DNA from: Thermanaeromonas sp. C210
Lineage (GTDB): Bacteria; Bacillota; DSM-521; Neomoorellales; Neomoorellaceae
DNA: 64,000 nucleotides
Direction: 5' to 3'
NCBI RefSeq assembly: GCF_013167955.1
Contig: NZ_BLWF01000003.1
Span: 62,001 to 126,000, forward strand
In this document: positions 12,110 through 48,764 of the stretch, in pieces
Layout of the letters: each line of letters starts with the position of its first letter
Numbering within the stretch: position 1 is the first letter of the stretch
Notes under the pieces: model-generated
Told to the model about the DNA's origin: nothing
Databases searched by the model: none
The model's input: only the letters and a program-made list of their open reading frames with translations
Translations under genes and position numbers: made by a program

Positions 12110-12121
12110 GAGGGTGTGAAT

Positions 12122-13738: not shown

Positions 13739-14129
13739 TATCCGTTACATCGTCACCGGCGCGGTTGTCTTCCTGGTGGTAATGACCTTCCCCTTCTGGT
13801 ACAACATAGGGAAGGCGGCTTCCGCGCCGGAGGTCAGCCTGGATACTCCCAGAATCCGGCAGATGGCCGAGCCGCAGTGTGTTGAACCCGCTTCTTATAT
13901 GAGGGCCAACCACATGCGGCTCCTGGAAGAATGGCGCGAACGGGTAGTCCGCCAGGGTGAGAGGATCTATGTGGCGGGCGACGGGAAGGAGTACTTAATG
14001 AGCCTGCAGAACACCTGCCTGGACTGCCATTCCAACTATGACGAGTTCTGCGCCCGGTGCCATGACTATGCCGGGGTAGCCCCCGATTGCTGGACGTGCC
14101 ATCTTGATTTTCCAAGGGAGAGTAAATAA
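13716..14129 (+). CDS. dsrJ: DsrJ, periplasmic triheme cytochrome c
   Basis: This membrane-anchored cytochrome belongs to the DsrMKJOP complex. A single N-terminal helix (IVTGAVVFLVVMTFPFWY) is followed by three CxxCH haem sites: CLDCH, CARCH and CWTCH. The conserved PQCVEPASYMRANHM segment carries the cysteine that serves as an unusual axial haem ligand in studied DsrJ proteins. The start may be GTG 13716 or ATG 13725; either overlaps the end of dsrK. The stop TAA overlaps the start of dsrO by one base. CcsA/ResB, coded divergently nearby, would attach the haems. Confidence 0.93.
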   Translation: MRRMKIPDIRYIVTGAVVFLVVMTFPFWYNIGKAASAPEVSLDTPRIRQMAEPQCVEPASYMRANHMRLLEEWRERVVRQGERIYVAGDGKEYLMSLQNTCLDCHSNYDEFCARCHDYAGVAPDCWTCHLDFPRESK

Positions 14130-14935
14130 TGAGGACCGGCAGGCGGAGCTTTTTGAAAATCGGCGCGGTGGGTGGATTAGGCCTGGTACTGCTCCCGGCC
14201 GTTAAAGGGTTCGCCGGTAGCGGGGAACCCCGGGATTCGGCGAGGGCCGGATCTACGGCGGGTAGGAAATGGGCCATGGTCGTTGACATGCAGAAGTGCT
14301 GGGAGCGGGGGAAGGGATGCCGGGACTGCATTCTGGCGTGCCACCGCACCCACAACGTGCCGGAGATTCCTGACCCCGAGGAAGAGGTCAAGTGGGTGTG
14401 GACCGAAAGGTTTGAACATGCCTTTCCAGAGCAGGCCCACGAGTACCTTGCTGAACACCTGAGGGATAACCCCTTCCTGGTTCTGTGCAACCATTGCGAA
14501 AACCCGCCCTGCGTGAGGGTGTGTCCCACTAAGGCCACCTTCAAGCGCGACGACGGACTGGTTATGATGGACTACCACCGGTGCCTGGGCTGCCGGTATT
14601 GCATGGCGGCCTGCCCGTATGGCGCCCGAAGCTTCAACTTTCGCGACCCACGCCCGTATCTCCGGGAATTGAATCCGGCCTTTCCTACCAGGGAAAAGGG
14701 TGTGGTGGAGAAATGCAATTTCTGTGCCGAAAGGCTGGAAGAGGGCCTGCTGCCTGCCTGTGTGGAAGGGTGCCCGGCGAAGGCCCTGGTCTTCGGCGAC
14801 CTGGACGATCCGGGCTCTGAAGTGAGGCGGATACTCGCCGGCAGCTATACCATAGTGCGGAAACCCGAACTGGGTACGAGGCCTAAAGTCTACTATGTGA
14901 TTAATCCCGGTGCAGGGAACAGCGGAGGACGATAA
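14129..14935 (+). CDS. dsrO: DsrO, Tat-exported ferredoxin-like subunit
   Basis: This periplasmic iron-sulfur protein carries electrons between DsrJ and DsrP. The N-terminus has a twin-arginine signal (GRRSFLKIGAVGGLGLVLLP). The mature part of about 240 residues has four ferredoxin-type cysteine groups, among them CWERGKGCRDCILAC, CNHCENPPCVRVCP, CLGCRYCMAACP and CNFCAERLEEGLLPAC. This is the fold of the NrfC/DmsB/PsrB electron-transfer subunits. It is translationally coupled to dsrJ and lies 2 bp before dsrP. Confidence 0.93.
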   Translation: MRTGRRSFLKIGAVGGLGLVLLPAVKGFAGSGEPRDSARAGSTAGRKWAMVVDMQKCWERGKGCRDCILACHRTHNVPEIPDPEEEVKWVWTERFEHAFPEQAHEYLAEHLRDNPFLVLCNHCENPPCVRVCPTKATFKRDDGLVMMDYHRCLGCRYCMAACPYGARSFNFRDPRPYLRELNPAFPTREKGVVEKCNFCAERLEEGLLPACVEGCPAKALVFGDLDDPGSEVRRILAGSYTIVRKPELGTRPKVYYVINPGAGNSGGR

Positions 14936-14937
14936 GC

Positions 14938-16110
14938 ATGCTGGCCAAGGCTCTTACGGGCAGCAACCGCTATTGGGGATGGATAGCTCTACTACTGGTC
15001 GTAATGGGTGTAGGGTTCCTCTGCTATTTTTGGCAGCTCAGGGAGGGCCTCACCGTTACGGGCATGAGCAGGGATGTTTCTTGGGGCCTGTATATCGGGC
15101 AGTTTACTTTCCTGGTGGGGGTAGCGGCTTCCGCCGTAATGCTGGTGCTGCCCTACTACCTTCACAACGTAAAAGAATTCGGCCGGATCACCGTTTTGGG
15201 AGAATTCCTGGCCGTGGCAGCCATCATTATGTGCCTGCTCTTTGTCATAGTGGACCTCGGGAAGCCCATGAGACTTTTAAACATGATATTGTATCCCACA
15301 CCCAATTCCCTTCTTTTCTGGGACATGGTGGTGCTGAACGGATATCTTCTTCTCAATATTATAATTGGCTGGCATGTTTTAGAAGCCGAATACAAGGCAG
15401 TGCCTCCCCCTGGATGGTTGAAGCCCCTGATTTATCTTTCCATACCCTGGGCGGTGAGCATCCATACGGTGACGGCCTTCCTCTATGCCGGTCTTCCCGG
15501 AAGGCATTACTGGCTTACCGCCCTGATGGCGGCGCGCTTCCTGGCTTCGGCTTTTGCTTCCGGGCCGGCCCTTCTTATCCTCCTGTGTTACATCCTGAAA
15601 AAGTATGCCGGGTTCGACCCGGGTAGGGCTGCCGTGCAGAAACTGGCGGGCATCGTTACTTACGCCATGATCGTTACCGTATTTTTTGTGGGATTGGAGT
15701 TTTTCACGGCCTTTTACAGTCAGGTGCCCGGCCACGGTGTACAGAGTCTGCGGTATTTATATACCGGGCTTGAGGGGCACGGGGGAATGGTCCCCTTTAT
15801 GTGGGTATTTGTCCTCCTTTCGGCCCTGGCCCTTGTTCTCCTTATAAACCCCGCTACCCGCGCCCGGGAAAAGACCCTGCTGGTGGCCTGTGCGGCCGTC
15901 TTCGGAGCTCTGTGGATTGAGAAGGGCTTGGGCCTCGTCATAGCCGGCTTTATCCCCAATCCCTTTGAGCGGGTCAGCGAATACGTGCCGACCCTGCCGG
16001 AGGTGCTAATCGCCCTGGGGGTATGGGCCACCGGATTGCTGGTCCTCACCGTCCTTTACCGGATAGTTGTGGCCGTCAAGAAAGAAACAGCCTTAGGAAA
16101 CGAGGGGTAA
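14938..16110 (+). CDS. dsrP: DsrP, NrfD-like membrane subunit
   Basis: This integral membrane subunit of 390 residues with about ten helices is of the NrfD/PsrC type and exchanges electrons with menaquinone on the periplasmic side. Recognisable stretches are SWGLYIGQFTFLVGVAASAVM, the family DLGKPMRLLNMILYP and SLLFWDMVVLNGYLLLN, and the C-terminal GLGLVIAGFIPNPFERVSEYVPT. Together with DsrM, it gives the complex two separate quinone-interacting modules. It lies between dsrO and dsrM with gaps of a few bases. Confidence 0.92.
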   Translation: MLAKALTGSNRYWGWIALLLVVMGVGFLCYFWQLREGLTVTGMSRDVSWGLYIGQFTFLVGVAASAVMLVLPYYLHNVKEFGRITVLGEFLAVAAIIMCLLFVIVDLGKPMRLLNMILYPTPNSLLFWDMVVLNGYLLLNIIIGWHVLEAEYKAVPPPGWLKPLIYLSIPWAVSIHTVTAFLYAGLPGRHYWLTALMAARFLASAFASGPALLILLCYILKKYAGFDPGRAAVQKLAGIVTYAMIVTVFFVGLEFFTAFYSQVPGHGVQSLRYLYTGLEGHGGMVPFMWVFVLLSALALVLLINPATRAREKTLLVACAAVFGALWIEKGLGLVIAGFIPNPFERVSEYVPTLPEVLIALGVWATGLLVLTVLYRIVVAVKKETALGNEG

Positions 16111-16116
16111 GTTGCC

Positions 16117-17109
16117 ATGGGAGTAGCCTTTTCGCTGGGGGTCGTTGCGGTTTTAATTCTGGCCATCACCCTGGCCGTGAAAGTACTGGGCCTCCAATTC
16201 TTGGTGGGCGCAGTGCTCCCATACGTTGCTGCGGCCGTCTTTCTTGGCGGGATGGCTTATCGCTTGCTGGGGTGGGGGCGGTCGCCCGTTCCCTTCCGGA
16301 TACCTACCACCGGCGGGCAGCAGCGCTCCCTTCCCTGGATTAAGCCCAGCAGCCTGGATAATCCCTCCAGTACCGCCGGGGTTATAGGCCGCATGGCCCT
16401 GGAGATCCTGCTCTTTCGCTCCCTCTTTCGCAACACCAAGGCCGAGCTCCATGAGGGGCCGCATCTGGCCTACCACTGGGAGAAGTGGCTGTGGGTGGGC
16501 GCCCTGGTTTTTCACTGGTCCATGCTTTTGGTAGTCATCCGGCACCTGCGGTTCTTTACCGATCCCGTTCCCTCCTTCGTCTACTGGGTGGACGGGATCG
16601 ATGGGTTCCTCCGGGTGGGACTACGCGCCCTTTATCTTACGGACATAACCTTTCTTTTGGGCGCTACTTACCTCTTGCTCCGCCGCTTCTTCATACCCCA
16701 GGTACGGTATATTTCCCTGCCGGGGGATTATGTACCCCTGCTTCTTCTTCTGGGCATTGGTATTTCCGGCGTTATCATGCGCTATTTCGTGGGGGTGGAT
16801 GTGGCGGCCGTCAAGGAGCTGGCCATGGGAGTGCTGACCTTCCGGCCCCGCATTCCGGAAGGGATCGGGGTTCTCTTCTACGTCCACTGGGGGCTGGCGT
16901 GTGCGCTGCTGGCTTACTTTCCCTTCAGCAAGCTGGTGCACATGGGCGGCATTTTCCTCATGCCTACCCGCAACCTGCCTAACGACAGCCGGGCCAGGAG
17001 GCACGTGAACCCGTGGAATTATCCCGTGAAGGTCCACACCTATAAAGAGTATGAAGAAGAGTTCCGGGAAAAGATGAAATTGGCGGGCATCCCGGTGGAA
17101 AAAGAGTGA
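16117..17109 (+). CDS. dsrM: DsrM, dihaem cytochrome b subunit
   Basis: This NarI-like quinol-oxidising subunit of 330 residues passes electrons to DsrK. The two haem-b ligand pairs expected from NarI are present with exact spacing: His133 and His143 (10 apart, FHW...IRH) and His257 and His275 (18 apart, VHW...LVH). This gives one proximal and one distal haem. It is the last gene of the operon and is followed by a rho-independent terminator. Here dsrM follows dsrP, while in most sulfate reducers it comes first (dsrMKJOP), so the order is K-J-O-P-M. Confidence 0.92.
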   Translation: MGVAFSLGVVAVLILAITLAVKVLGLQFLVGAVLPYVAAAVFLGGMAYRLLGWGRSPVPFRIPTTGGQQRSLPWIKPSSLDNPSSTAGVIGRMALEILLFRSLFRNTKAELHEGPHLAYHWEKWLWVGALVFHWSMLLVVIRHLRFFTDPVPSFVYWVDGIDGFLRVGLRALYLTDITFLLGATYLLLRRFFIPQVRYISLPGDYVPLLLLLGIGISGVIMRYFVGVDVAAVKELAMGVLTFRPRIPEGIGVLFYVHWGLACALLAYFPFSKLVHMGGIFLMPTRNLPNDSRARRHVNPWNYPVKVHTYKEYEEEFREKMKLAGIPVEKE

Positions 17110-18560: not shown

Positions 18561-19968
18561 TGCTAATTAGGCTCTATGTCAATAGTTGTGGGATTAGATT
18601 TTGGGGGCAGCATCCCAGAAACATTTTCTTGATGAAATGGGTACGATTGCCAAAGCCAAAACTTAAGCGTTTTAACATTTTAATTAAGGTGTTTTTACCT
18701 TCAATATAGCCATTAGTATACCGCCGACCTTGTTGAGTATATGTTACCAAATTTAATATTTCTGACCTCCAAGACTTGATAGTACGCGCCCATACCCGTC
18801 CTTCTGCATCTTCGGCGCATTCGGCATTTATGAGCCAACGGCTTAAGGCAGCTTGAGCCTCCTCTACCCGGTCCATCTTTAGGATCTGGCGCAAATCTTC
18901 CTTTAGCTGGTATAGTTCATAGAGGGACGGGTATTTATTTCTAATTTTTTCTAACGTCTCTCGTTGTCTGGGAGTAAGTCTCTCCTTAGCCTTAATCAAA
19001 GGTAGGCGAGGTATGTTCTCCTTGCTTGCTTCTTGTTCTACTTTCCGGGCTTCATTTAGGCGACGGTTGGCGTCCTGAATTACATGGAAGGGGTCTACTA
19101 TTATCTTGGCTGAAGGAAAAACCGTTTTGATTAACTTCCGCCAAGAGTCTTTCATATCAATTACTACCGCCTCTACTTTCACCCCGGCTTCTTTGAGCCC
19201 CTCTAGATAAGCCCTTATAGTAGCCGTTCTCACGTCCTCTAAAATACTCAAAGGTCTCTTGTCCGGTGCTAACCTCCCTACTACGCATACAAAATCCTTC
19301 CCGCTAAAGGATAGCTCATCTAAGGTTAACACTACGGGCCCTTGAGTATCATCCCCGCGAAGACCGGGCTGGATATACTTGTCCACTATTCTTATAACCC
19401 TACCAGGAGTGAGGTTTAATATTTGGGCAGCACCGGTAAAGCTCATCCTCTGGGCATAATAAACTACTATCTGCACCCCTAATTTTGTAAATCTGGCCCA
19501 GGCGTTGGTACCCGGAGGACGAAGGGTATAAGTCTTCTTACAACGATAACACTTATACCGTACCGGCACCCAAGAGAGAATAACCCACCTCCCGTATAAA
19601 AAAGCATGACGAACTTTCCTTTCTTTGGGCTTCTTCTCCCTTCCCTTTAAAAAGCCATGTCTATGTAATTTGCCTTCGTTGCATGCCGGACATACGGCTG
19701 GAGGGTCTATGGTCACCCTTAACACAATATCTCCCTGGTCGCGAGGTGCTTCTAAAATAGTCTGTAGTATTTTCCCAAAATTCTCTTGTCCTTCAAGAGT
19801 GAACGTGTTAATCTTATGCATGGGGGCACTCCTTTCTTCTAGGGGCTTCTGGTTACTAACTTTAATTGGATGTGCCCCCGTCCTTTTCCTCCTTTTCTTC
19901 TAACTCACCCCCTCTTCCCCCTCTACTTAACCCTTTCCCACACTTTTTATTATAGAGCCTGCTAATTA
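18561..19968. mobile_element. ISL3-family insertion sequence with target duplication
   Basis: The element spans 18570-19959 (1390 bp). Its ends are imperfect inverted repeats beginning GGCTCTAT (18570) and ATAGAGCC (ends 19959). Both sides are flanked by the identical 9-mer TGCTAATTA (18561-18569 and 19960-19968). ISL3 elements normally make 8-bp duplications, and one of the nine bases could belong to an end. The intact transposase and perfect duplication suggest a fairly recent insertion. It sits one base before the -35 box of alaS. Confidence 0.9.
18574..19821 (-). CDS. ISL3-family transposase
   Basis: This DDE transposase of 415 residues is coded inside the insertion sequence, and its stop codon lies in the terminal repeat. 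The N-terminus has zinc-finger cysteines (CPACNEGKLHRHG and CYRCKKTY). The catalytic acidic residues are probably in LTLDELSF, VVIDMKDSW, IVDPFHVIQDANRR and YIEGKNTLIKMLKR, which together are characteristic of ISL3. No frameshift or internal stop is seen, so it may still be active. Confidence 0.93.
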   Translation of the reverse strand: MHKINTFTLEGQENFGKILQTILEAPRDQGDIVLRVTIDPPAVCPACNEGKLHRHGFLKGREKKPKERKVRHAFLYGRWVILSWVPVRYKCYRCKKTYTLRPPGTNAWARFTKLGVQIVVYYAQRMSFTGAAQILNLTPGRVIRIVDKYIQPGLRGDDTQGPVVLTLDELSFSGKDFVCVVGRLAPDKRPLSILEDVRTATIRAYLEGLKEAGVKVEAVVIDMKDSWRKLIKTVFPSAKIIVDPFHVIQDANRRLNEARKVEQEASKENIPRLPLIKAKERLTPRQRETLEKIRNKYPSLYELYQLKEDLRQILKMDRVEEAQAALSRWLINAECAEDAEGRVWARTIKSWRSEILNLVTYTQQGRRYTNGYIEGKNTLIKMLKRLSFGFGNRTHFIKKMFLGCCPQNLIPQLLT

Positions 19969-31246: not shown

Positions 31247-32440
31247 TTGGTCGAATCCCGAACTCCCCGGGTAGATGAGCTGGAAAAGGGGCCGTGGCCG
31301 AGTTTCGTTAAAGAAATGAAAAGGGCCGCGGAGAAAAAACCGGCGGCGGGGGATTTATTGCGGCAGCTGGATCTCTCTTATGAGGAAAAAGTGGGTCACT
31401 GGAAACACGGGGGTATTGTAGGAGTAAGGGGTTACGGTGGGGGCGTAATAGGCCGCTACTCCAACAAACCAGAGGAGTTTCCCCACATTAGGGAATTCCA
31501 CACCATAAGGGTAAACCAGCCCAGCGGTTGGTTTTACACCACCAAGGCCTTGAGGTCCCTATGTGATATTTGGGACAAATACGGTAGTGGGTTGACCAAT
31601 TTCCACGGGTCTACGGGGGACATCATCCTCCTGGGTACCACCACGGAAAACCTGCAGCCCTGCTTTGACGAGCTGAGCGATGCCGGTTTCGATCTGGGCG
31701 GCTCGGGCGGCGGTCTTCGAACCCCCAGCGCCTGCGTAGGGCCGGCACGCTGTGAGTATTCGTGTATCGATACCTTGGATGTTTGCCACAGCCTCACCCT
31801 GGAGTTTCAAGATTTCCTCCACCGGCCCCAGTGGCCCTACAAGTTCAAGATCAAGGTTTCGGGCTGCGGCAACGACTGTGTAGCTGCCATCGCCAGGGCC
31901 GACCTGGCCATCATCGGTACTTGGAAGGGCCCCCTACAGATAAACCAGGCGGCGGTGGCCGAGTACGTCAAGAACGGCCTTGATATTGAGGCGGAAGTTG
32001 TAGAGAGGTGCCCCACGGGGGCTCTAGCCTGGGACGCCGCCAACGAGGAACTGAAGCTAAGCGTTGAGGAATGCGTCCGCTGCATGCACTGCATTAACCG
32101 GATGCCCAAGGCCCTAAAGCCCGGTACGGAAAGGGGCGCTACCCTTCTGGTGGGAGGCAAGGCCACCATCCTGAAATCGGCCTTCCTCGGGTGGGTTATC
32201 GTACCCTTTATGAGCTTAACTCCTCCCTATACCGAGCTCAAGGACCTCCTGGGCAGGATTTTCGACTGGTGGGACGAAAACGCCAAGAACAGGGAGCGCA
32301 TAGGCGAACTTATTTACCGGCTCGGCATGCGCACCTTCCTTAAGGCAGTAGGTTTGCCGCCGGTACCCCAAATGGTATTCCGGCCCCGGGCCAATCCCTA
32401 CGTGTTCTGGTGGCCGGAGGAGGTGAAACGAAATGCCTAG
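31247..32440 (+). CDS. dsrA: Dissimilatory sulfite reductase alpha subunit DsrA
   Basis: DsrA is half of the cytoplasmic alpha2beta2 sirohaem enzyme that reduces sulfite and loads sulfur on DsrC. The 397 residues start at TTG 31247, with GGAGGTGA 7 bp before. Sirohaem-[4Fe-4S] cysteines are C163-x5-C169 ([12 protein letters not shown]) and C207-x3-C211 (SGCGNDC). The inserted ferredoxin domain uses C255 and C276/C279/C282. The substrate-side segment [16 protein letters not shown] is conserved. The stop overlaps dsrB by 8 bp, so translation is coupled. This is the canonical copy, in contrast to the one at 36323. Confidence 0.96.
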
Positions 32441-33491
32441 GACCGATTTCGGACCTCCCTATTACGGGGATATGCTTCCGCCCGTCATTAAGAGGAATTA
32501 CGGGAAATGGGCCTACCATGAAATACTTAGGCCCGGCGTACTAAAGCATGTGGCCGAGAGCGGTGAGGAGGTCTACACCGTACGGGTGGGCTCGGCGCGG
32601 CTGCTCAGCACCGACACCATCCGGGATATCTGCGACCTGGCAGACAAGTATTGTGACGGCTATGTGCGCTTTACCAGCCGCCACAATATCGAGTTCATCC
32701 TTTCCAAGAAGGAGAATATCGAGCCCCTAATTGCCGAAGTCAAGGCTAAGGGGTGGCCGGTGGGCGGAACGGGAAGCTGCCTGAGCAATATGGTCCATAC
32801 CCAGGGCTGGATTCACTGCCATACGCCGGCTACGGATGCCTCCGGCATCGTCAAGGCGGTGATGGATGAGCTCTATAGCTATTTTGAAGAAGACAAACTA
32901 CCGGCCAAGTTGCGCATCGCCCTGGCCTGTTGTTTGAATATGTGTGGGGCCGTCCACTGCTCGGACATCGCCATCCTGGGCATCCACCGGACGCCGCCGC
33001 GGGTCAACCATGAAATGCTGGCCAAGGTGAGCGAGATTCCCACGGTAGTGGCCAGTTGTCCCACAGGCGCCATCCGGCCCAACCCGAAGCTCAAGAGCGT
33101 GGACGTAATTGAAGAAAGGTGCATGTACTGCGGTAACTGCTATACCATGTCCCCGGCCATGGAGATTATGGATCCGGAAAACGACGGCATTTCCCTCTGG
33201 GTAGGCGGCAAAGTGTCCAATGCGCGGTCGGCTCCCATGTTCTCGCGCCTGGCCATCCCCTACCTGCCCAACAATCCTCCCCGCTGGCCGGAAGTGGTCG
33301 AGGCGGTGAAACACCTGGTGGAGGTTTGGGCCACCCATGCCCGCAAAGGCGAGAGGATGGGCGAGTGGATCGAGCGGATAGGTTGGGAAACCTTCTTTAA
33401 ACTTACGGGCATCCCCTTTACGGATAAACATATCGACGATTTCGTTTTCAGCGTCCCGACCTTCCGGACCACGGTCCAATTCCGCTGGTAG
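32433..33491 (+). CDS. dsrB: Dissimilatory sulfite reductase beta subunit DsrB
   Basis: DsrB carries the catalytic sirohaem. The 352 residues show the DsrB-specific cysteine pattern: a lone C129 ([15 protein letters not shown]) and C166-C167-x3-C171 ([12 protein letters not shown]). This is the spacing of Desulfovibrio DsrB (151, 188, 189, 193). The ferredoxin domain has SCPTGAIRP and CMYCGNC. The arginines in [12 protein letters not shown] fit the anion-binding pocket. A strong hairpin lies just after the stop and may set the ratio of dsrAB to the following genes. Confidence 0.96.
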
Positions 33492-33548: not shown

Positions 33549-34208
33549 ATGGGTTGGCTGGCGTACTTGGTAGGGATATTTCTGCCGTACGTGGCCTTAG
33601 CCGTCTTTGTGGCAGGATTTATCTATCGGGTTGTATGCTGGAGTCGGGCGCCCCGGCACCTGCCCTGGGAGCTATTCCCCTACCCGCGCACGGCAGGGGA
33701 ACGGGTGGGAGAAATGGTAATGGAGGTTGTGTCACTCCGGAGCCTAAAGTTGCACAATAAGAATATATGGCTGCCCTCCCTTCTTATGCATTGGGGCATT
33801 TACCTGGTGGCCGGGTGGTTGTTCCTCGTCCTGGTGGGATGCCCGGTGGGGCTCCTGGGATACTTGGGCGGACTTGCGGCGGCCGGCGGCTCCTTGTGGA
33901 TGTTTGCCAAGCGGCTGTGCCGGGGCCTGAAAATATTATCCACACCGGTGGAATACCTCAACCTGCTCCTGGTGTTTCTAATTTCCGCGGGAGGCATAAT
34001 CAGCGGCTTCTTCGGTGAAGGCCCTGCGGTCAGGGAATATGCGGTAGGCCTCCTAAGCCTAGCGCCCCGTTTGCCCTCCCGTCCGTCCCTTTTGTGGGAG
34101 ATTTTTTTCCTGGAAATATTCCTGCTGTACTTGCCCTTCGGCCGCATGATCCATTTTGCGGCCAAGTATTTCACCTACCACCGGGTAAAATGGGGTGAAA
34201 GCCATTGA
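33549..34208 (+). CDS. Short DsrM-like cytochrome b, one haem site lost
   Basis: This NarI/DsrM-type membrane subunit has 219 residues and five helices, against 330 in the DsrM coded at 16117. It begins WLAYLVGIFLPYVALAVFVAGFIYRVVCW, like DsrM. The first helix-pair ligand His81 (LMHWGIY) is present, but the residue 10 positions later is Leu91. The last His202 (RMIHF) is present, but the residue 18 positions before it is Glu184. By NarI numbering the proximal-haem pair is kept and the distal pair is gone. It overlaps the following dsrK-like gene by 4 bp and so forms a two-subunit DsrMK module. Confidence 0.87.
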   Translation: MGWLAYLVGIFLPYVALAVFVAGFIYRVVCWSRAPRHLPWELFPYPRTAGERVGEMVMEVVSLRSLKLHNKNIWLPSLLMHWGIYLVAGWLFLVLVGCPVGLLGYLGGLAAAGGSLWMFAKRLCRGLKILSTPVEYLNLLLVFLISAGGIISGFFGEGPAVREYAVGLLSLAPRLPSRPSLLWEIFFLEIFLLYLPFGRMIHFAAKYFTYHRVKWGESH

Positions 34209-35581
34209 GAAAAGTCCTGGATGAGTACCGCGCCCTTTCCGATGAAGTGCTCAAGCCCCATGAAAACCGCGTACCCCGGTTTTTGGAGGCCATGAAAAAG
34301 TCCCTGGACAGCCGGGCCAACTGGACTTTTTGGCTTCCCTATGTTCTTTCCCTGGACACCTGCATGAAGTGCGGCACCTGTGCCGAGGTGTGCCCGCTCT
34401 ATTTGGGAAGCGGCCGCCGGGAAATCTACCACCCTGCCGTGCGGGCTGACATGCTCCGCAGGATATACCGCCGGTACTTCACCCTGGCAGGCAGGCTGTT
34501 TCCCCGGTTGGTAGGGGCAGAGGACTTAACGGAGGAAAAGCTGGATGCTCTGGCCGAGGGTTCTTACCGCTGCACGGTCTGTCGACGGTGTGCCTACGTT
34601 TGCCCCGTGGCCATTGATAACGGATTGATAATCAGGGAGGCCAGGAAAATACTAGAGGCCATAGACATTGCCCCGGATGAGCTGAGGGAAAAAGGGACCC
34701 GGAAGCAGTTGGAGATGGGCAATGCTACGGGAACGCCCACGGCCGCCTTCCTGGACATAGTAGACTTCCTCGTGGAAGAAATCCAGGATACCAAGGGATA
34801 CAAAATAGAGATACCGGTGGACAAAAAGGGCGCCGAGTATTTAGTAATGCATAATGCCGGAGATTACCTGGCCTTTGCGGAAACGGTGATGGGGGCGGCT
34901 GAAATCTTTCACGCGGCCGGGGTGGATTGGACTCTCAATTCTCCCGCTACGGGCATCAACGATGTTGTCAATTACGGGGTATTTTTCAGTGATGTAGAGC
35001 TGGAGAAGGTGCTGCGGGCCCAGATTAAGACCTGTATTGATTTAAAGATAAAAACCCTGGTGGTGGGCGAGTGTGGCCACGCCTTTGAGGCCTTCAAGTA
35101 CATTATGATGCGGCTGGTACCGGAGGAGGAAAGGCCCTTTGAGGTTAAGAGTATACTGGAACTAATAGACCAGTGGATCGGGGAGGGGCGCATCAAGGTA
35201 GATCCACGGAAGAATCCGGAACCGGTGACCTATCATGATTCCTGCAAGCTGGGACGCCTGGGAGGCCTTTACGAAGAGCCGCGCCGTATTCTTCAGGCGT
35301 GCTGCACGGATTTCCGCGAGATGCATCCTAACCGAGAAATGAGTTATTGTTGCGGCGGCGGGAGCGGTTTTGCCATAATGACCAAGGGGGATTTCTTGAA
35401 GTTTAGGATGGAGACCTACGGGAAGATCAAGGCCCGCCAGATGGAGGAAACGGGCGCTAGTATTGTGGCCTTGGCGTGCTCCAACTGCAAGGGACAGTTC
35501 CGCGAAATCATAAATTACTATAAGCTCCCGGTACGCTTTGCCGGTATCAGCGAGCTGGTAGCCAATGCCCTAGTGCTGTAA
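34205..35581 (+). CDS. Second DsrK-like HdrD-type iron-sulfur protein
   Basis: This cytoplasmic partner of the short DsrM has 458 residues and a TTG start overlapping the previous gene. Two ferredoxin motifs, CMKCGTCAEVCP and CTVCRRCAYVCP, are followed by CCG-domain cysteines: HDSCKLGRLGG, SYCCGGGSGF and ALACSNCKGQF. It lacks about 80 residues found at the N-terminus and elsewhere in the DsrK at 12122. Sitting directly before dsrC, it is a good candidate for a DsrC-trisulfide or other heterodisulfide reductase using one-haem electron supply. Annotation as HdrD-like is equally valid. Confidence 0.88.
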   Translation: MRKVLDEYRALSDEVLKPHENRVPRFLEAMKKSLDSRANWTFWLPYVLSLDTCMKCGTCAEVCPLYLGSGRREIYHPAVRADMLRRIYRRYFTLAGRLFPRLVGAEDLTEEKLDALAEGSYRCTVCRRCAYVCPVAIDNGLIIREARKILEAIDIAPDELREKGTRKQLEMGNATGTPTAAFLDIVDFLVEEIQDTKGYKIEIPVDKKGAEYLVMHNAGDYLAFAETVMGAAEIFHAAGVDWTLNSPATGINDVVNYGVFFSDVELEKVLRAQIKTCIDLKIKTLVVGECGHAFEAFKYIMMRLVPEEERPFEVKSILELIDQWIGEGRIKVDPRKNPEPVTYHDSCKLGRLGGLYEEPRRILQACCTDFREMHPNREMSYCCGGGSGFAIMTKGDFLKFRMETYGKIKARQMEETGASIVALACSNCKGQFREIINYYKLPVRFAGISELVANALVL

Positions 35582-35644: not shown

Positions 35645-35962
35645 ATGCCTAAAATGGTGCTGGCAGGTATTGAAATTGAAGTGGACGAAGACGGGTTCAT
35701 CCAGGACCCAGACAAGTGGAATGAGGCCGTAGCCAAGGCCTTGGCCGAGACGGAGGGAGTTACCGAGCTGACGGAGGATCACTGGAAGGTCATTAATTAC
35801 CTACGCCAGTATTACCTCCAGTTCGGCATTGCTCCCATGATACGGAAGCTCTGCAAAGAGACGGGCTTTACCCTGAAGCAGATTTACGATCTCTTTCCCA
35901 GCGGGCCCGCCAAGGGTGCCTGTAAGATTGCCGGGCTACCCAAGCCTACGGGATGCGTGTAA
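35645..35962 (+). CDS. dsrC: DsrC sulfur-carrier protein
   Basis: DsrC is the co-substrate of DsrAB: sulfite sulfur leaves as a trisulfide between its two C-terminal cysteines. The 105 residues end GACKIAGLPKPTGCV with Cys93 and Cys104, the canonical C-x10-C arm. The middle contains ELTEDHWKVINYLRQYYLQFGIAPMIRKL, conserved in the family. GGAGGGGG before the ATG is a strong ribosome site. Its place between dsrK and the second dsr set suggests that one DsrC may serve both reductases. Confidence 0.95.
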   Translation: MPKMVLAGIEIEVDEDGFIQDPDKWNEAVAKALAETEGVTELTEDHWKVINYLRQYYLQFGIAPMIRKLCKETGFTLKQIYDLFPSGPAKGACKIAGLPKPTGCV

Positions 35963-36022: not shown

Positions 36023-36066
36023 AATTGTTGATTCTTGTGCTAAAATTGATTCAAGGAGGGATGGAG

Positions 36067-36321
36067 ATGAGCCTTTCTAATGCTCAGAGGGAAAGGATTG
36101 CCGCCAGGGCATTAGAACGGGGTATCCATCTCACCAAGGAACACTGGCACATCCTGGAATTAAGCTATAACTATTATTCTCAACACGAGACACTGTGTAC
36201 CTTGCGCACTTTAATTAAACTGAGCGGCTGGGAAAAGAAGAAGATTTATAAGCTTTTCCCGGGAAATCCCATTGGAGAAATCAGCAAGATAACCGGATTA
36301 CCCATGCCTAAGGAGTGTTAA
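36067..36321 (+). CDS. DsrC/TusE-like paralogue with a single cysteine arm
   Basis: This short DsrC-family protein has 84 residues from ATG 36067 (AAGGAGGG 6 bp before; the ATG at 36061 is too close). HLTKEHWHILELSYNYYSQHETLCTLRTLIKLSG matches the DsrC core. The C-terminal arm is GEISKITGLPMPKEC: the last cysteine is kept, but the partner eleven residues earlier is serine. It can carry a persulfide as TusE does, yet cannot form the intramolecular trisulfide of DsrC. The second dsrA-like gene starts one base after its stop, so the two are coupled. Confidence 0.85.
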   Translation: MSLSNAQRERIAARALERGIHLTKEHWHILELSYNYYSQHETLCTLRTLIKLSGWEKKKIYKLFPGNPIGEISKITGLPMPKEC

Positions 36322-36322
36322 C

Positions 36323-37423
36323 ATGGCTAAGCCTGCCGACGGAACGGCCCTTTGCCGGCTGCTGTTGGAGGGGAAGTACCCCAGCCACGTCAGAGAGCTG
36401 GCCGCCACCGGCTACCCTTTGGCCCTCTATGAAGCAGGACTTAAAGATGGCCTTCCAGCCTTTGAGGGCGGCGGTTACGTCTCCATTCCTGAAATACCTG
36501 CCGGGGCTTCGACCCGCTCCAGCCGCTACCCCGATTTGCTGGAGGAATCGCCCTTTCTCCGGATTCTCTGCCCCGCCGGAGGCTGGGTGAGCGCAGCCAC
36601 CTTAGAGGCCCTGGCCGACCTGGCCGAGGATTACGGCCTGGGTTTGATACACTTCACCACGGGTGGCACCCTGGAGATTTATACCCCACGGGAAAATATG
36701 GTTCCCCTGGTGCGTGAACTGAACAGGCTCGGCCTGGACGTTGGGTCTACGGGAGACGATCTGCGGTGCGTCATAGCATGCTGCGGTCCGGCGCGGTGTG
36801 ACGCTGCCCTGATCGACGCACCGGCCCTAGCCACTTATTTGGGGGAACGCTTCATGGAGGACCAGCAGTACCCGGGCTTTCCCCATAAATGCAAGAGCGG
36901 GGTGGGGGGCTGCCCTAACGACTGTATTCGGGCCATGATGCAGCGGGACAATTCTTTTGTAGGCGTCTACCGGGATCTCCCCCTGGTGGACGAACAAAAG
37001 TTCGGCGAGTGGGTGGCGAGGGGCGGCCCTTGGCGGGAACTGGCCGAGGCTTGCCCGGGAACAGCATTAAAAATTCATGAGGGTTCTCGTGGCCTGCGGG
37101 TGGAGATAGAGGGTGAGAAATGTCTTCGATGCATGACCTGTATCAACTTCTGTCCAGCCATAGAGCCGGGCCGGGAGCGGGGAGTGGCCTGGGTAGTGGG
37201 GGGAAAATACGGCCGCCGGGGAGGGCAGGGTCCCATGGTCGGACATGTCCTGGTACCCTTCATACCGGTGCGGGGCCCAGAAGATTACCCCCTGCTGGGC
37301 GATCTCTTCGGTGCCCTTCTGGAGCTCTGGACAGAACATGGCAAGACCAAGGAGCGAATGGGTGATTTCGTGAGCCGGTGGGGGCTCGAGCGCATTCGGA
37401 GGGAACTAGGTCTCGAGCCGTAG
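36323..37423 (+). CDS. Divergent second DsrA-like sulfite reductase subunit
   Basis: The product has 366 residues and is shorter at the N-terminus than DsrA. Sirohaem cysteines are C153-x5-C159 (ACCGPARC) and C197-x3-C201 (GGCPNDC). The ferredoxin insert has EACPGTALKI and CLRCMTCINFCP with one cysteine more than DsrA. The substrate-side stretch differs strongly (LIHFTTGGTLEIYTPREN against [14 protein letters not shown]). C-terminal features (GHVLVPFIPV, TKERMGDFVSRWGLERI) are DsrA-like. With the gene at 37485 it forms a second reductase. Its substrate may be sulfite or another oxyanion or sulfur compound; the sequence does not decide. Confidence 0.88.
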   Translation: MAKPADGTALCRLLLEGKYPSHVRELAATGYPLALYEAGLKDGLPAFEGGGYVSIPEIPAGASTRSSRYPDLLEESPFLRILCPAGGWVSAATLEALADLAEDYGLGLIHFTTGGTLEIYTPRENMVPLVRELNRLGLDVGSTGDDLRCVIACCGPARCDAALIDAPALATYLGERFMEDQQYPGFPHKCKSGVGGCPNDCIRAMMQRDNSFVGVYRDLPLVDEQKFGEWVARGGPWRELAEACPGTALKIHEGSRGLRVEIEGEKCLRCMTCINFCPAIEPGRERGVAWVVGGKYGRRGGQGPMVGHVLVPFIPVRGPEDYPLLGDLFGALLELWTEHGKTKERMGDFVSRWGLERIRRELGLEP

Positions 37424-37484
37424 GCGCAATTATTCAGAAAAGCGTCGTACAATCTTCTGCTCCTTAATTCAAGGAGGGAAGCCG

Positions 37485-38543
37485 GTGACCGAAGCAGGCG
37501 AACTTCCAGCGGGTATTATGCCCGATTTCCGGCGCGAATTGCCGCCTTACCTTAAGGAGAAGGCGGGAAGCTGGGTCTGGCATGAAGAAGTCGGGCCGGG
37601 CATAATCAAACACACGGCCCGGGACGGTAGTGAGCTATGGAGTGTTAGAATCCTCCTGCCTCCCAACGGCCTTCTGGCCGCGGCCTCCCTGCGTAAATTG
37701 GCGGGTTTTATCAAGAGATATGCCCTAACCGGGCGGCGTACCTTTCGGCAAGGATTTGAGTTGGTAGGGGTGGATCCTTCCAAGTTGGATATCCTGCTGA
37801 AGGAGCTGGCCGCGGCCGGCTTCCCCGTGGGGGGGACGGGCCGGACTTTGCACCAGATCAAGTGCTGTACTTCCTTTGTGCATTGCCAAAATGCAGCCGT
37901 GGATGCCCCCAGTATAGCCAAGGTCTTGGGAGATTACCTATACCGGTACTTTACGGTCTCCGGCCTCCCGGCGCAGCTGAAGGTATCCATCAGCGGTTGC
38001 CCCAACAGCTGTGGCGGCAGCGTAGAGGCGGACATCGGGATTGTCGGAGTCTTCGCGGACGTTCCCGAGGTAAACGATAGAGAGCTGATTGCTGCCAATG
38101 AGGATATCGGTCTTCTCGTATCCTGGTGCCCGGCAGGGGCCATCCGGCCTAAACGGACACCGGAGGGAACTTCCGTCACTATAAATAAGGAGCGTTGCGT
38201 GCTGTGTACGTCCTGTGCCCAGGCAGCTCCCCGGGGTATCAAAATGGGCCCTAACCGCGGAGCGGCCATACTGGTGGGAGGTAGGGGAGGTGCCCGGCCT
38301 TCCCTGGGACAAGTTGTTTTTCCCTTTGTACCGGCCAAACCCGTGGACTACGGGGAGATTTGCCGCCGAATCCGTCTTATTCTGGATTTCTGGATAAGGG
38401 AAGGCAAACCCGGCGAGAGGTTGGCCACCTTTGTTCAACGAGTGGGGGGAGACCATTTCCGCAACCTCTTGGGCGTTGAAGAGGTGAGCTCCTTGCCCGG
38501 CGAGAAAGGGAGAAACCATGACTTCCGGCCGAGACATACCTAG
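37485..38543 (+). CDS. Divergent second DsrB-like sulfite reductase subunit
   Basis: The product has 352 residues, with a GTG start behind AAGGAGGG. It aligns over its whole length with DsrB, but the sirohaem ligands follow the general sulfite/nitrite reductase pattern: C128-x5-C134 (CTSFVHC) and C172-x3-C176 (SGCPNSC). In DsrB the position of C128 is threonine and the glycine before C172 is the extra cysteine C166. The ferredoxin domain has SWCPAGAIRP and CVLCTSC. Basic residues in GRRTFRQGFELVG replace [11 protein letters not shown]. Its end overlaps dsrN by 26 bp. Confidence 0.88.
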   Translation: MTEAGELPAGIMPDFRRELPPYLKEKAGSWVWHEEVGPGIIKHTARDGSELWSVRILLPPNGLLAAASLRKLAGFIKRYALTGRRTFRQGFELVGVDPSKLDILLKELAAAGFPVGGTGRTLHQIKCCTSFVHCQNAAVDAPSIAKVLGDYLYRYFTVSGLPAQLKVSISGCPNSCGGSVEADIGIVGVFADVPEVNDRELIAANEDIGLLVSWCPAGAIRPKRTPEGTSVTINKERCVLCTSCAQAAPRGIKMGPNRGAAILVGGRGGARPSLGQVVFPFVPAKPVDYGEICRRIRLILDFWIREGKPGERLATFVQRVGGDHFRNLLGVEEVSSLPGEKGRNHDFRPRHT

Positions 38544-39921
38544 AGTGGTTTTAGCCGCGCCCCATGGACGTTCCGGCAAGACAATTTTGACCCTGGGTCT
38601 TGTTGCCGCCCTGGTTAAAAGGGGATTAAGGGTGCAACCCTTTAAAAAGGGCCCCGATTTCATCGATCCCAGCTGGCTCTCCCTGGCAGCCGGACGACCG
38701 TGCCGTAACCTGGACTTGTATTTTGTGAGCCCCCAGGAGCTCAGGCGTCTGTTTGTATGGGGCTGCCGCGAGGCAGATGTAGCGGTAATTGAGGGGGCAA
38801 TGGGTCTTTTCGACGGCCTGGATATGAAGGGTAGCGGCAGTACGGCAGAGATTGCCCTGGCCCTGGAGGCGCCGGTGCTTCTGGTGGTGGATACCACGCG
38901 CATGACCCGGAGCGTTGCAGCACTGGTAAGGGGCTTCCAGGATTTTGATTCCCGGCTGAGGCTCTCCGGCGTCATCCTTAACCGGGTGGCCCGACCCCGC
39001 CATGAAAATATGCTGCGGCGGGCTATAGAAGAATATACCGACCTGCCCGTCCTGGGGGCCTTACCTAAGGACGACGCCTACCTCATACCCGACCGGCACC
39101 TGGGCCTTATACCGGCGGCGGAAAGGGAAGACCTGCACCGGGCCCTGGAGGCCACCAGGGCGGCCGTGGAGGGAGCCGTGGACGTGGATCGGATTTGGGA
39201 TATAGCCAGAACGGCGCGGCCCGTGCCGGGTGAGGGGGTTCCCGGCTACTCTGCTCCTCAGAGGGGCGTCAGTCTTGGCGTAATCAAGGACCGGGTTTTT
39301 CATTTTTATTACCCGGAAAACCTAGAAGCTTTGGTCGGGGCCGGTGCGAGGCTGGTGCTGGTGGACAGCCTGAAAGATAGTTGTTTGCCGGCCGTCGACG
39401 GGCTGTACATCGGGGGAGGCTTCCCTGAAGTCTTCGCCGCGGAGCTGGAGGCCAATGCCGCCCTGCGGAGGTCCATCCGCCGGGCGGCGGAGGAAGGCCT
39501 GCCCATTTATGCCGAATGCGGGGGGCTAATATACCTGGCCCGCCGGCTGTACCTGGACGGCAAGGTCTTCGAAATGGTAGGCGCGCTGCCCCTGGATGTT
39601 CAATTGGAAAAGAAACCCCAGGGTCACGGCTATACCCTGCTGGAGGCCCGGCCCGGCAATCCCTTTTTCAGTCCGGGGAGCCGGGTGAAGGGCCACGAAT
39701 TCCACCATTCGCGAGTTATCAATCTGGAGAGGGAAAAGATCGGTTTTGCCTACCGCGTGCTGCGGGGTAACGGAGTCGAGGACGGCTTTGACGGGATCCT
39801 TTACCGGCAAATTCTGGCCAGCTACAACCACCTCTATGCCCCTGCCCACCACGAGTGGATTCCGCGTTTTGTTGCCAGAATGAGCGGTGAAGTAAGGGTC
39901 ACGGCAAACCTGGGAAGTTAG
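38518..39921 (+). CDS. dsrN: DsrN, cobyrinate a,c-diamide synthase-like sirohaem amidase
   Basis: This glutamine-dependent amidotransferase has 467 residues. The N-terminal P-loop domain has APHGRSGKTILTLGL and KKGPDFIDPSWL. The C-terminal GATase domain has the nucleophile cysteine in IYAECGGLIYLARRL and the histidine segment VKGHEFHHSRV. CbiA/CobB enzymes act in cobalamin synthesis. Inside dsr operons the homologue DsrN is taken to convert sirohaem to the amide form used by DsrAB. The overlap with the second dsrB gene and the absence of other cobalamin genes favour DsrN. A role in corrinoid synthesis cannot be excluded. Confidence 0.88.
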   Translation: MTSGRDIPRVVLAAPHGRSGKTILTLGLVAALVKRGLRVQPFKKGPDFIDPSWLSLAAGRPCRNLDLYFVSPQELRRLFVWGCREADVAVIEGAMGLFDGLDMKGSGSTAEIALALEAPVLLVVDTTRMTRSVAALVRGFQDFDSRLRLSGVILNRVARPRHENMLRRAIEEYTDLPVLGALPKDDAYLIPDRHLGLIPAAEREDLHRALEATRAAVEGAVDVDRIWDIARTARPVPGEGVPGYSAPQRGVSLGVIKDRVFHFYYPENLEALVGAGARLVLVDSLKDSCLPAVDGLYIGGGFPEVFAAELEANAALRRSIRRAAEEGLPIYAECGGLIYLARRLYLDGKVFEMVGALPLDVQLEKKPQGHGYTLLEARPGNPFFSPGSRVKGHEFHHSRVINLEREKIGFAYRVLRGNGVEDGFDGILYRQILASYNHLYAPAHHEWIPRFVARMSGEVRVTANLGS

Positions 39922-39945
39922 CAAGGAAAAAGTAGGTGAAGGTTG

Positions 39946-40833
39946 ATGAGTGCATCCATAGGCCCGAAGCTGAGACAGCTCAGGATGGAGCGCGGGATAT
40001 CCTTGGAAGCTCTGGCCGATATGCTGGACATTGCCCCCGACTGCATGAGAGAGGTGGAGGAAGGTACGCGGCGCCTTTCGGCGGCCACCCTGGCCGAAGT
40101 GGCTAGCATCCTGGGGGTGGACGCGAGTTACTTCCAGGAAGAAAACGGTAGCCCACCCGGAGGGGACAACAACCAGCTCGGCGCCAAGCTCCGCAGGCTG
40201 CGGGAGCAAAAAGGTCTTACCTTAAACGAATTGAGCCGCAAATCGGGAGTCTCCCTGGCCCACATTAGCGAAATAGAGAGGGGTCGGTCCACGGCCTCCT
40301 TGAAGACCCTGGAGAAACTGGCCGCTGCCCTGGAAGTGAGCACCAGTTCCCTTTTACAGGCGGAACGAGGGGAAAGCCTGGGCAGCAAATTAAGGCGATT
40401 GCGGGAAAAGATGGGACTCACCCAGAAGGAACTAGCCGATCAGGTAGGGATTTCCCACAGCCTTATCGGCCAAATCGAAACCGACCGCATTCTGCCCTCC
40501 CTGACCACTTTGCACCGCCTATCGGAGGCTTTAGGGGTTTCCAGCTGTTACTTCCTGATGGAAGACGAGGTGCCCCTGCCTTCCAGCCTGCAGCGCAGCG
40601 CCGTGCAAGAACTGGTGAATCTTTTGCGCTCATGGGGAGATGAAGAAATCCGGGGACTGATTCAGTTCGTAAGGATTATTAACCAGTACCGCCCCGCCGC
40701 TGTCGAGGGCCACGGCGGTGAAAAGGAAGAGATAGTTTCTTTCCTGGATACTTGCCTTCCGGAGGAGCGGGAACTTTTGCGGGATTTGGTACGCACCCTG
40801 CGGCGCAAAAGGTCTCATAACGACGGGTTATAA
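39946..40833 (+). CDS. XRE-family regulator with three tandem HTH domains
   Basis: This cytoplasmic DNA-binding protein of about 295 residues has three Cro/C1-type domains in a row: about 4-65 (IGPKLRQLRMERGISLEALADML), 77-138 (LGAKLRRLREQKGLTLNELSRKSGVSLAHISEIERGR) and 145-206 (LGSKLRRLREKMGLTQKELADQVGISHSLIGQIETDR). An acidic helical tail without a sensor motif follows. Most XRE regulators have one such domain. It lies 24 bp after dsrN, probably in the dsr transcript, and is a candidate regulator of the sulfur block. Its ligand is unknown. Confidence 0.8.
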   Translation: MSASIGPKLRQLRMERGISLEALADMLDIAPDCMREVEEGTRRLSAATLAEVASILGVDASYFQEENGSPPGGDNNQLGAKLRRLREQKGLTLNELSRKSGVSLAHISEIERGRSTASLKTLEKLAAALEVSTSSLLQAERGESLGSKLRRLREKMGLTQKELADQVGISHSLIGQIETDRILPSLTTLHRLSEALGVSSCYFLMEDEVPLPSSLQRSAVQELVNLLRSWGDEEIRGLIQFVRIINQYRPAAVEGHGGEKEEIVSFLDTCLPEERELLRDLVRTLRRKRSHNDGL

Positions 40834-40917: not shown

Positions 40918-41967
40918 GTGGCCCAGGAGAGAATTCGATTAACGCAGCTGTCCTGCAGTGCCGGGTGAGCGGCTAAAGTGGGTCCGGGGACCCTTAGCCA
41001 GTTGTTGCGAGTCCTGCCGATGCAGGCCCTCCAGAGCCCTGAGCTCCTCGTGGGGATAGAAACCATTGATGACGCCGGCGTCTACCGCCTGACGGACGAT
41101 ATAGCCCTGATTCAAACCCTGGATTTCTTTACGCCCATAGTAGACGATCCTTATCTTTTCGGGCAGATTGCCGCGGCCAACGCCCTGAGCGATATTTACG
41201 CCATGGGCGGGAGGCCCTTGACGGCCATGAACGTGGTATGCTTCCCCACCAAGAAGGTGGACTCCGGCGTTTTGGGAGAGATCCTGCGGGGCGGGGCCGA
41301 GAAAATCATGGAAGCCGGAGCCGTGTTGGTAGGGGGGCACAGTATAGAGGACGAGGAACCCAAATACGGTCTGGCCGTTACGGGAATAGCCCATCCGGAC
41401 AAAATCGTTACCAACTCGGGGGCCCGGCCGGGTGACAAACTCATTCTCACCAAGCCCCTGGGTACCGGCATCCTGGCCACCGCCCTTAAGGCGGATATGG
41501 CAAGTCGGGAAACTGAAGAAGAGATGGGACGCTGGATGGCCATGCTCAACCGGGACGCGGCCGCGGCCATGACGGAGGTAGGCGTCCATGCATGTACGGA
41601 CATTACAGGCTTCGGCCTTCTGGGTCACTGTTTGGAGCTGGCCCAAGGCAGCGGAGTGGATGTGGTGCTGGAAAGTCGCGAAATACCCCTGTTGCCCGGG
41701 GTTTTGGATTTTGCGGCCATGGGATTAGTTCCCGGCGGGGCTTATAATAACCGGCGTTATATGGAGGGGAAAGTGCATTTTGACGGCCACGTGAAGGAGG
41801 CCTTACAAGACGTCCTTTACGACCCCCAAACCTCGGGAGGGCTTTTGATGGCCGTGGCTCCCGAGAAAGTTTCCCCCTTGCTGTCGGAGCTGCACCGGCG
41901 AGGAGTAAAGACGGCGCGGGTAATCGGCGAAGCCATCCCGGGTAAGGGCTTCATTCATGTCCGCTGA
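40918..41967 (+). CDS. selD: Selenophosphate synthetase with selenocysteine (UGA recoded)
   Basis: SelD makes selenophosphate from selenide and ATP. Reading from GTG 40918 (site AGGGAGG upstream) gives VAQERIRLTQLSCSAG, then TGA (40966-40968) at codon 17, then AAKVGPGTLSQLL in the same frame. Codon 17 is exactly the catalytic Cys/Sec position of SelD, so the TGA encodes selenocysteine. A hairpin follows at once. The rest is complete: GIETIDDAGVYRLTDD, LDFFTPIVDDPYLFG, AANALSDIYAMGG, GGHSIEDEEPKYGL, TDITGFGLLGH and DPQTSGGLLMA. The product has 349 residues. Its presence predicts selA, selB and selC elsewhere in the genome. A gene call starting at 40978 would lose the active site. Confidence 0.92.
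40969..41001 (+). promoter_or_regulatory. Bacterial SECIS-like hairpin in selD
   Basis: Directly behind the UGA, GGCTAA (40971-40976) pairs with TTAGCC (40993-40998). Inside it GGGTC pairs with GACCC around the loop CGGG. Position and size fit the bacterial selenocysteine insertion element read by SelB. Confidence 0.7.
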
Positions 41968-48014: not shown

Positions 48015-48764
48015 ATGAGCCGGACTAAGGCCGTGGACGTGGCTCTGCTAAACAGTTACAAAGAGCAGCTCCATTTCCTGAATATAACCGCCGAGGACTT
48101 GAGGCTCATGCATAGCCAGCGGGAAAATTTTATTAAGGAAGCAGACGGGGTGGTAAAGGAGTTCTATGAGTACCTTCAGCGTTACGCCTATCTGGACAAC
48201 CTAATTAAGAAACACAGCACCGTAGAAAGGCTGTCCAAGACCCAAAGGGAATATTTTATCAGCCTTACCGACGAAAAAATTGACGACGAATACATAGCCC
48301 GGCGCCTGGCGGTGGGAAAAAAACACCAGGAAATAGGGTTGTACCCCAAGTGGTATTTGGGCGCCTATCACCTTCATTGGGCGGCCATCAAGCGCATAGT
48401 CTGGCAGTACAATGAAGGAAGGGAGCTGTGTTTGCGCCTGCTGGAGGCTTTCAGCAAACGGATCATTTTCGACATGGAGCTGGCCATTGAAAGTTATATT
48501 ATAGAGCAACTGGATAAGCTCAATCAGTTCCATGAGGAAATTGCCGCCGTGGCCTCCATCATTAGCGATATAGCCGATCAAACTAAAATACTGTCTTTGA
48601 ACGCCTCCATCGAAGCGGCGCGGGCGGGGGAGCACGGCCGCAGTTTTGCCGTGGTGGCGCAGGCGGTACGGGACCTGGCAGCCCGCACCTCTAAGTCGGC
48701 CCAGGATATTGCCCAGAAAGTAAAGGAAAATTCCGGCATCCTGGAGAAAATGCGTCAGTCATAA
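48015..48764 (+). CDS. Soluble globin-coupled sensor with short chemoreceptor tail
   Basis: The product is a HemAT-like protein of 249 residues. The N-terminal globin domain (about 1-170) has the proximal haem ligand His104 in [21 protein letters not shown] helix links to the chemoreceptor signalling tip: [20 protein letters not shown] then [20 protein letters not shown]. HemAT of Bacillus is about 430 residues; here the methylation helices are missing, so only the kinase-contacting hairpin remains. It should sense oxygen or redox gas and signal through CheA/CheW or by an unknown route. No che gene is in the window. Confidence 0.87.

Follow-up and report, generated by a model that had tools for sequence, protein, structure and literature searches.

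Two dsrAB pairs in a single gene run

The window analysed here, a stretch of 64,000 nucleotides from Thermanaeromonas sp. C210, carries two complete dsrA-dsrB pairs 3 kb apart, all in intact open reading frames as a preliminary description of this DNA had reported. Both belong to one run ordered dsrA1-dsrB1-dsrM-dsrK-dsrC1-dsrC2-dsrA2-dsrB2-dsrN-xre, which is followed by selD and a GntR-family gene. Window positions of the run are as follows:

31247–32440, + strand: dsrA1, canonical (TIGR02064, 567 bits)
32433–33491, + strand: dsrB1, canonical, CXnCCX3C (TIGR02066, 526 bits; alignment)
33549–34208, + strand: dsrM-like membrane subunit, short form (weak DsrM match, 58 bits; conserved neighbour)
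34205–35581, + strand: dsrK-like [4Fe-4S]/CCG-domain subunit (NF045796, 333 bits, under the equivalog cut-off of 400)
35645–35962, + strand: dsrC1, canonical DsrC with both cysteines, C93 and C104 (TIGR03342)
36061–36321, + strand: dsrC2, 86-residue DsrC paralogue with Ser75 at Cys_B and Cys86 (= Cys_A) last (PF04358, E 9e-16; alignments, co-occurrence, model)
36323–37423, + strand: dsrA2, basal type I DsrA, 366 residues (translation, alignment; phmmer to solved DsrA chains)
37485–38543, + strand: dsrB2, basal type I DsrB, 352 residues, GTG start (alignment; phmmer to solved DsrB chains; model)
38518–39921, + strand: dsrN/cobB-type amidase, likely for sirohaem amidation (CobB/CfbB-family models)
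39943–40833, + strand: XRE-type regulator with three HTH domains, conserved neighbour (three HTH_3 stretches)

Both genes of the upstream pair score far above the NCBIfam dsrA and dsrB cut-offs; the downstream pair misses the equivalog cut-offs (212 against 393 bits for dsrA2, 249 against 342 for dsrB2). The xre gene adjoins dsrN in nearly all related loci.

The window DsrA2 ends approximately 20–40 residues short of its relatives (37400–37484). A frameshift at the dsrA2 C-terminus was considered and rejected, as the downstream frames contain no recognisable lost tail. The selD gene (40978–41967) lies 3' of the dsr run in Moorella-group loci and was not seen at the locus of a more distant family, f35; two Moorella genomes have a TusA-family gene between selD and xre. 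This neighbour may possibly denote a selenium link, or it may belong to an adjoining selenium cassette.

Distribution and polarity of the DsrB ligand sets

The cluster ligands of the second pair are:

DsrA2: C153, C159, C197, C201
DsrB2: C128, C134, C172, C176

In the corresponding region DsrB1 has T123/C129...C166-C167-x3-C171, and DsrB2 has C128-x5-C134...G171-C172-x3-C176, that is, CX5C...GCX3C in place of the CXnCCX3C of the canonical clade. These cysteine positions agree with the preliminary description, the alignment is gap-free between the motifs, and the two segments singled out there, LIHFTTGGTLEIY and GRRTFRQGFELVG, are both present. In other genomes, 12 relatives and two more distant ones carry the DsrB2 pattern without variation, so it reflects neither sequencing error nor chance.

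We aligned 301 proteins from fetched genomes, comprising DsrA, DsrB and Fsr/Dsr-LP-like sequences. Among the 147 DsrB sampled, CX5C...[GA]CX3C is found in all 50 non-canonical proteins (14/14 type I, 23/23 archaeal reductive and 13/13 other archaeal or basal), while T(or S)-x5-C...CCX3C (CXnCCX3C) is confined to the bacterial-type DsrB and occurs in 97/97 of them. The archaeal reductive-type sequences come from the class of genome G558, which we take to be Thermoproteia; DsrB of A. fulgidus has the bacterial-type Cys-Cys set in the alignment with PDB chains. CXnCCX3C has been given as the DsrB motif and contrasted with aSir/Fsr (PMC10229431), but in the present sample that definition is valid only for bacterial-type DsrB. 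One divergent DsrB in the Chloroflexi-phylum sample (L190:1462-2547) has Ser for Thr, and CTACC for CLNMC in the cluster motif.

Ligand states were mapped on an IQ-TREE phylogeny of 61 rows estimated under a C20 mixture. A single change was recovered, on the branch leading to bacterial-type DsrB (100/98), and the result was the same when the five motif columns were left out. Given that change counts alone give no direction, polarity was taken from the outgroup and from DsrA. All outgroup sequences (Fsr and Dsr-LP-like) have the CX3C pair and, with one exception, CX5C as well; the CX5C...CX3C set also occurs in DsrA. Both facts indicate that the Cys-Cys form is derived. With the outgroup root, the window pair retains the ancestral ligand set, as an old trait kept rather than one newly regained. 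The preliminary description had viewed this motif as reset, that is, restored; that direction, and convergence likewise, is contradicted by the occurrence of the set in every non-bacterial-type DsrB sampled and by a tree that needs only one change.

The ferredoxin domain of type I DsrA has an extra cysteine, giving CX2CX2CX3C in 14/14 sequences, at a position occupied mostly by Met in canonical DsrA and by Ala in archaeal DsrA. The same cysteine is absent from type I DsrB and mostly present in other DsrB, so that the residue has changed places between subunits.

Phylogenetic position of the second pair

The second pair belongs to a family already described, basal type I DsrAB; the earlier suggestion of an ancestral-type Dsr was in this respect well founded. 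The clade was named in PMC12948486 (mLife 2026), the same lineage appears in PMC10504309 (ISME J 2023) as the 'second copy of Moorella spp.', and PMC7174415 places it among the deepest DsrAB. PMC10504309 further describes a dsrN beside the second copy in Moorella and the detection of both copies by proteomics.

In our tree type I forms the first split within DsrB, mirrored by DsrA type I, and all other DsrB constitute one group (99/93). Grouping type I with canonical DsrB was rejected (AU p 4e-5), and with it both an ordinary DsrAB with drifted cysteines and a placement of the pair inside ordinary DsrAB with no long branch, the outcome that the preliminary description had named as one that would refute it. 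A grouping with the archaeal type was not rejected (AU p 0.10), so more than one order at the root would fit the data.

The window genome belongs to the same family as Moorella, and the same locus is present on contig 4 of the Moorella mulderi genome (G007). Among the matches listed, identity to M. mulderi (L070) is 61%, and 12 Moorella-group sequences fall in one clade with the window pair. Relatives of dsrB2 at 59–69% identity occur in 14 genomes out of the 22 in the class, a count that includes the window genome, and at 52–53% identity in two genomes of f35, another family of the phylum; every other DsrB in a sample of 398 phylum genomes is canonical and no more than 40% identical. PMC12948486 lists three Chloroflexota members of type I, and type I DsrAB was not found among the 400 genomes that we sampled from the phylum of a Chloroflexi locus.

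A conserved sulfite site in DsrA2

In the working sirohaem of DsrAB the cluster lies on DsrB and the anion-binding residues on the partner subunit (PMC10229431). R80, R148, K189 and K191 of DsrA2, the equivalents of Fsr R355, R423, K460 and K462, are invariant in 14/14 sequences of the clade. DsrB2 has His in place of R423 (14/14) and has lost the K460 equivalent, with Gln in the window protein; the second site consequently looks structural, as in known DsrAB. The pair thus has the broad DsrAB-type arrangement of Arg/Arg/Lys/Lys at the sulfite site of DsrA together with one degenerate site, and an AlphaFold2 model of DsrB2 (pLDDT 87) matches solved DsrB chains at TM 0.82–0.84. The preliminary description had also entertained a new substrate, which this invariance and the degenerate structural site of DsrB2 leave unsupported.

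Other markers are less typical. The DsrA marker Thr (T133 in A. fulgidus) is relaxed to S/T/A/N in the clade (T113 in the window), and the third Lys is G/A in type I DsrA; both observations count against the interpretation that we favour below. The aSir marker Arg, expected at the Fsr R388 position, is absent from DsrA2, type I DsrA having S/T/A/N there. By these markers DsrAB2 is neither classical DsrAB nor aSir, and nothing in them points away from sulfite; judged from its residues, the enzyme is most likely a sulfite reductase.

A short DsrC paralogue accompanies the pair

Between dsrC1 and dsrA2 lies dsrC2, which the preliminary description overlooked. Its 86-residue product ends in GLPMPKEC, with Cys_A at the last position as the sole tail cysteine; an invariant Cys46 is located in the body, outside the tail. 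The two C-terminal cysteines 11 residues apart that define the DsrC trisulfide are not both present in the window protein, where Ser75 stands at the Cys_B position. This position is Ser in 14/15 dsrC2 and Cys in genome G094, an exception that counts against the favoured interpretation. The G094 protein (L067:8976-9356) is the only one of the 15 to keep both tail cysteines, ICQLTGLPKPEEC, and is possibly an intermediate between DsrC and the single-cysteine form. For a model of DsrC2 the only confident matches were to DsrC chains (probability 1.00, TM 0.65–0.76, E-values 0.007–0.08).

A dsrC2 profile matched all 15 of the tested dsrB2 genomes at 134–161 bits, although these are related and do not represent 15 independent events, the two of family f35 being more independent. 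None of 23 genomes without the pair (canonical dsrAB only, or none) contained dsrC2, the best match being an ordinary DsrC at 63 bits. In family f35 dsrC1 is beside dsrA1B1, and dsrC2 remains in the group formed by xre, dsrN and dsrA2B2. The second tail cysteine is reported from organisms with DsrAB, and in those without DsrAB the position is mostly Ala, Ser or Thr (PMC3397948); a Ser-form DsrC fixed to a dsrAB pair is an exception to this rule.

We also considered whether dsrC2 is TusE, which needs TusBCD, of the DsrE family, and MnmA, and rejected this possibility given that the window genome yielded no DsrE-family protein. The MnmA of the window is near a NifS-type desulfurase and far from dsrC2, and TusA-family proteins, which are numerous, are uninformative on this point.

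Genomic context

A search of the window genome gave no true AprA (best E 8e-4), which makes APS reduction, and hence sulfate respiration, unlikely; the electron acceptor or sulfur source is likely to be sulfite or thiosulfate rather than sulfate. The lack of a DsrE-family protein in this genome argues against both a DsrEFH oxidative route and a TusBCD-TusE relay.

DsrK (540 residues), DsrP and DsrM of the full DsrMKJOP type are encoded at 12116–17109, apart from the small dsrM-dsrK pair at 33549–35581, and are followed by an ISL3-type transposase at 18574–19821 on the minus strand. A protein at 48015–48764 has a protoglobin domain fused to a chemotaxis-signalling domain and is likely a haem-based oxygen sensor. 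The window genome has two more sirohaem reductase-family genes (C1:587828-588406 and C2:421702-422103; L003, L006); the first has a TusA-family gene immediately after it (C1:588459), and the second has one approximately 4 kb away.

Discussion

One explanation for these results, to which we assign a probability of roughly 0.6, is that basal type I DsrAB reduces sulfite and hands the sulfur to the single-cysteine DsrC2. DsrA2 and DsrB2 would form an A2B2 enzyme in which each AB unit has one working sirohaem-[4Fe-4S] centre, with its cluster from DsrB2 and its anion pocket from DsrA2, and one structural centre, the sirohaem being amidated by the adjacent DsrN. Sulfite would be the substrate reduced, and in the putative hand-off the C-terminal Cys86 of DsrC2 would be inserted at the catalytic sirohaem and take the sulfur. 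Because DsrC2 has no second cysteine, intramolecular trisulfide closure is precluded, so the sulfur would leave as a persulfide, or else in a mixed trisulfide formed with DsrC1 or with a thiol, then to be reduced through DsrK/DsrM. Several observations count for this proposal: the pair belongs to the published clade; the ligand set is common to archaeal and other basal DsrB, DsrA and Fsr-type proteins and changes once on the tree; DsrA2 has the invariant sulfite-binding residues and DsrB2 the degenerate site; dsrC2 tracks the pair (15/15 with it, 0/23 without) even where dsrC1 lies elsewhere; a lone Cys_A suffices for sulfur binding in the A. vinosum protein (PMC3397948); and the AprA result favours sulfite or thiosulfate as the source. 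Besides the relaxed DsrA markers and the G094 exception, two points count against it. PMC12948486 states that there is so far no evidence for sulfite-reducing activity of basal type I, and the dsrC1 next door in the window could serve both pairs.

One may postulate an alternative scenario, of rather low probability, in which DsrAB2 forms sulfide by a single six-electron reduction, as assimilatory Sir or Fsr do, for sulfite detoxification or assimilation, and DsrC2 has a docking or regulatory role and is not the sulfur acceptor. The cluster ligands are indeed of the aSir/Fsr type, one of two aSir traits in PMC10229431, and G/A takes the place of the third Lys, a feature shared with Fsr-type proteins; however, the other trait, Arg at the R388 position, is missing, the same cluster ligands occur in dissimilatory-type archaeal DsrB, and the pair has a DsrC-family gene fixed next to it. 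Activity on another anion (nitrite, selenite or thiosulfate) seems less probable again. Such a role would accord with the reduction of nitrite, and the weak reduction of selenite, by Fsr (PMC10229431), and a selenite version would feed the product of the neighbouring selD, found 3' of the run in Moorella-group loci; yet the sulfite-binding residues are invariant and the f35 locus was not seen to include selD.

It is improbable that the pair runs oxidatively, with persulfide sulfur on DsrC2 converted to sulfite. In A. vinosum DsrC, Cys_A by itself binds sulfur (PMC3397948), and a single Cys_A can carry a persulfide, but the window genome is without a DsrE-family sulfur donor, AprA was not found in it, and its relatives appear to be strict anaerobes with reductive-type neighbouring genes. 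Least credible is a decaying or non-catalytic relic: the shortened tail of the window DsrA2 and the lack of support so far for activity in the clade (PMC12948486) would suit it, but ligands and pocket are invariant across 14 sequences, the cassette is conserved in two taxonomic groups and both Moorella copies were seen by proteomics (PMC10504309).

Basal type I DsrAB serves as the root of the DsrAB tree, and through it the origin of sulfite respiration is dated, and a fixed, mostly single-cysteine DsrC partner provides a concrete enzyme-carrier pair that makes activity testable. Since it arises from a single change limited to bacterial-type DsrB, the Cys-Cys ligand set is a clean shared derived trait of that group in this sample. 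We suggest, quite tentatively, that basal DsrAB with its own DsrC2 represents a sulfite reductase cycle without an intramolecular DsrC trisulfide, operating beside canonical DsrABC in the same cell, either as surviving chemistry that predates the two-cysteine carrier or as a lineage-specific departure. In the literature found, neither the phylogenetic boundary between the two ligand sets nor the strict dsrC2 partnership is reported, and as subscription papers for the most part and supplements fall outside that literature we claim no priority.

Comparison with known systems

The closest known system is basal type I DsrAB as published (PMC12948486, PMC10504309), with the same clade, the same host family and adjacent dsrC and dsrN. 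The window differs in having canonical dsrAB1 directly upstream in the same gene run, and neither dsrC2 nor the ligand set is mentioned in the accessible text of those papers. Like TusE, a single-cysteine member of the DsrC family, dsrC2 has Cys_A and Ser at Cys_B; unlike TusE, it has its cysteine as the last residue, a shortened N-terminus and a gene fixed beside dsrA2B2, in a genome without a DsrE-family (TusBCD-like) protein. Fsr and assimilatory sulfite reductase share CX5C...CX3C and the four Arg/Lys with the window pair, which in contrast is a heterodimer with a DsrC-family partner, no aSir marker Arg in DsrA2 and no F420 or flavin domain. Archaeal reductive-type DsrAB (Thermoproteia) has the same CX5C...CX3C in DsrB and the full sulfite-binding set in DsrA, but its DsrB is only 29–34% identical to that of the window and falls in a separate clade, and its structural site has W and K where the window pair has H and R. 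Canonical bacterial DsrAB (A. fulgidus 3mm5, D. vulgaris 2v4j) resembles the window pair in fold, DsrA pocket, ferredoxin domains and two-site asymmetry, and differs from it in the CXnCCX3C of DsrB, the two-cysteine DsrC and the strict marker Thr of DsrA.
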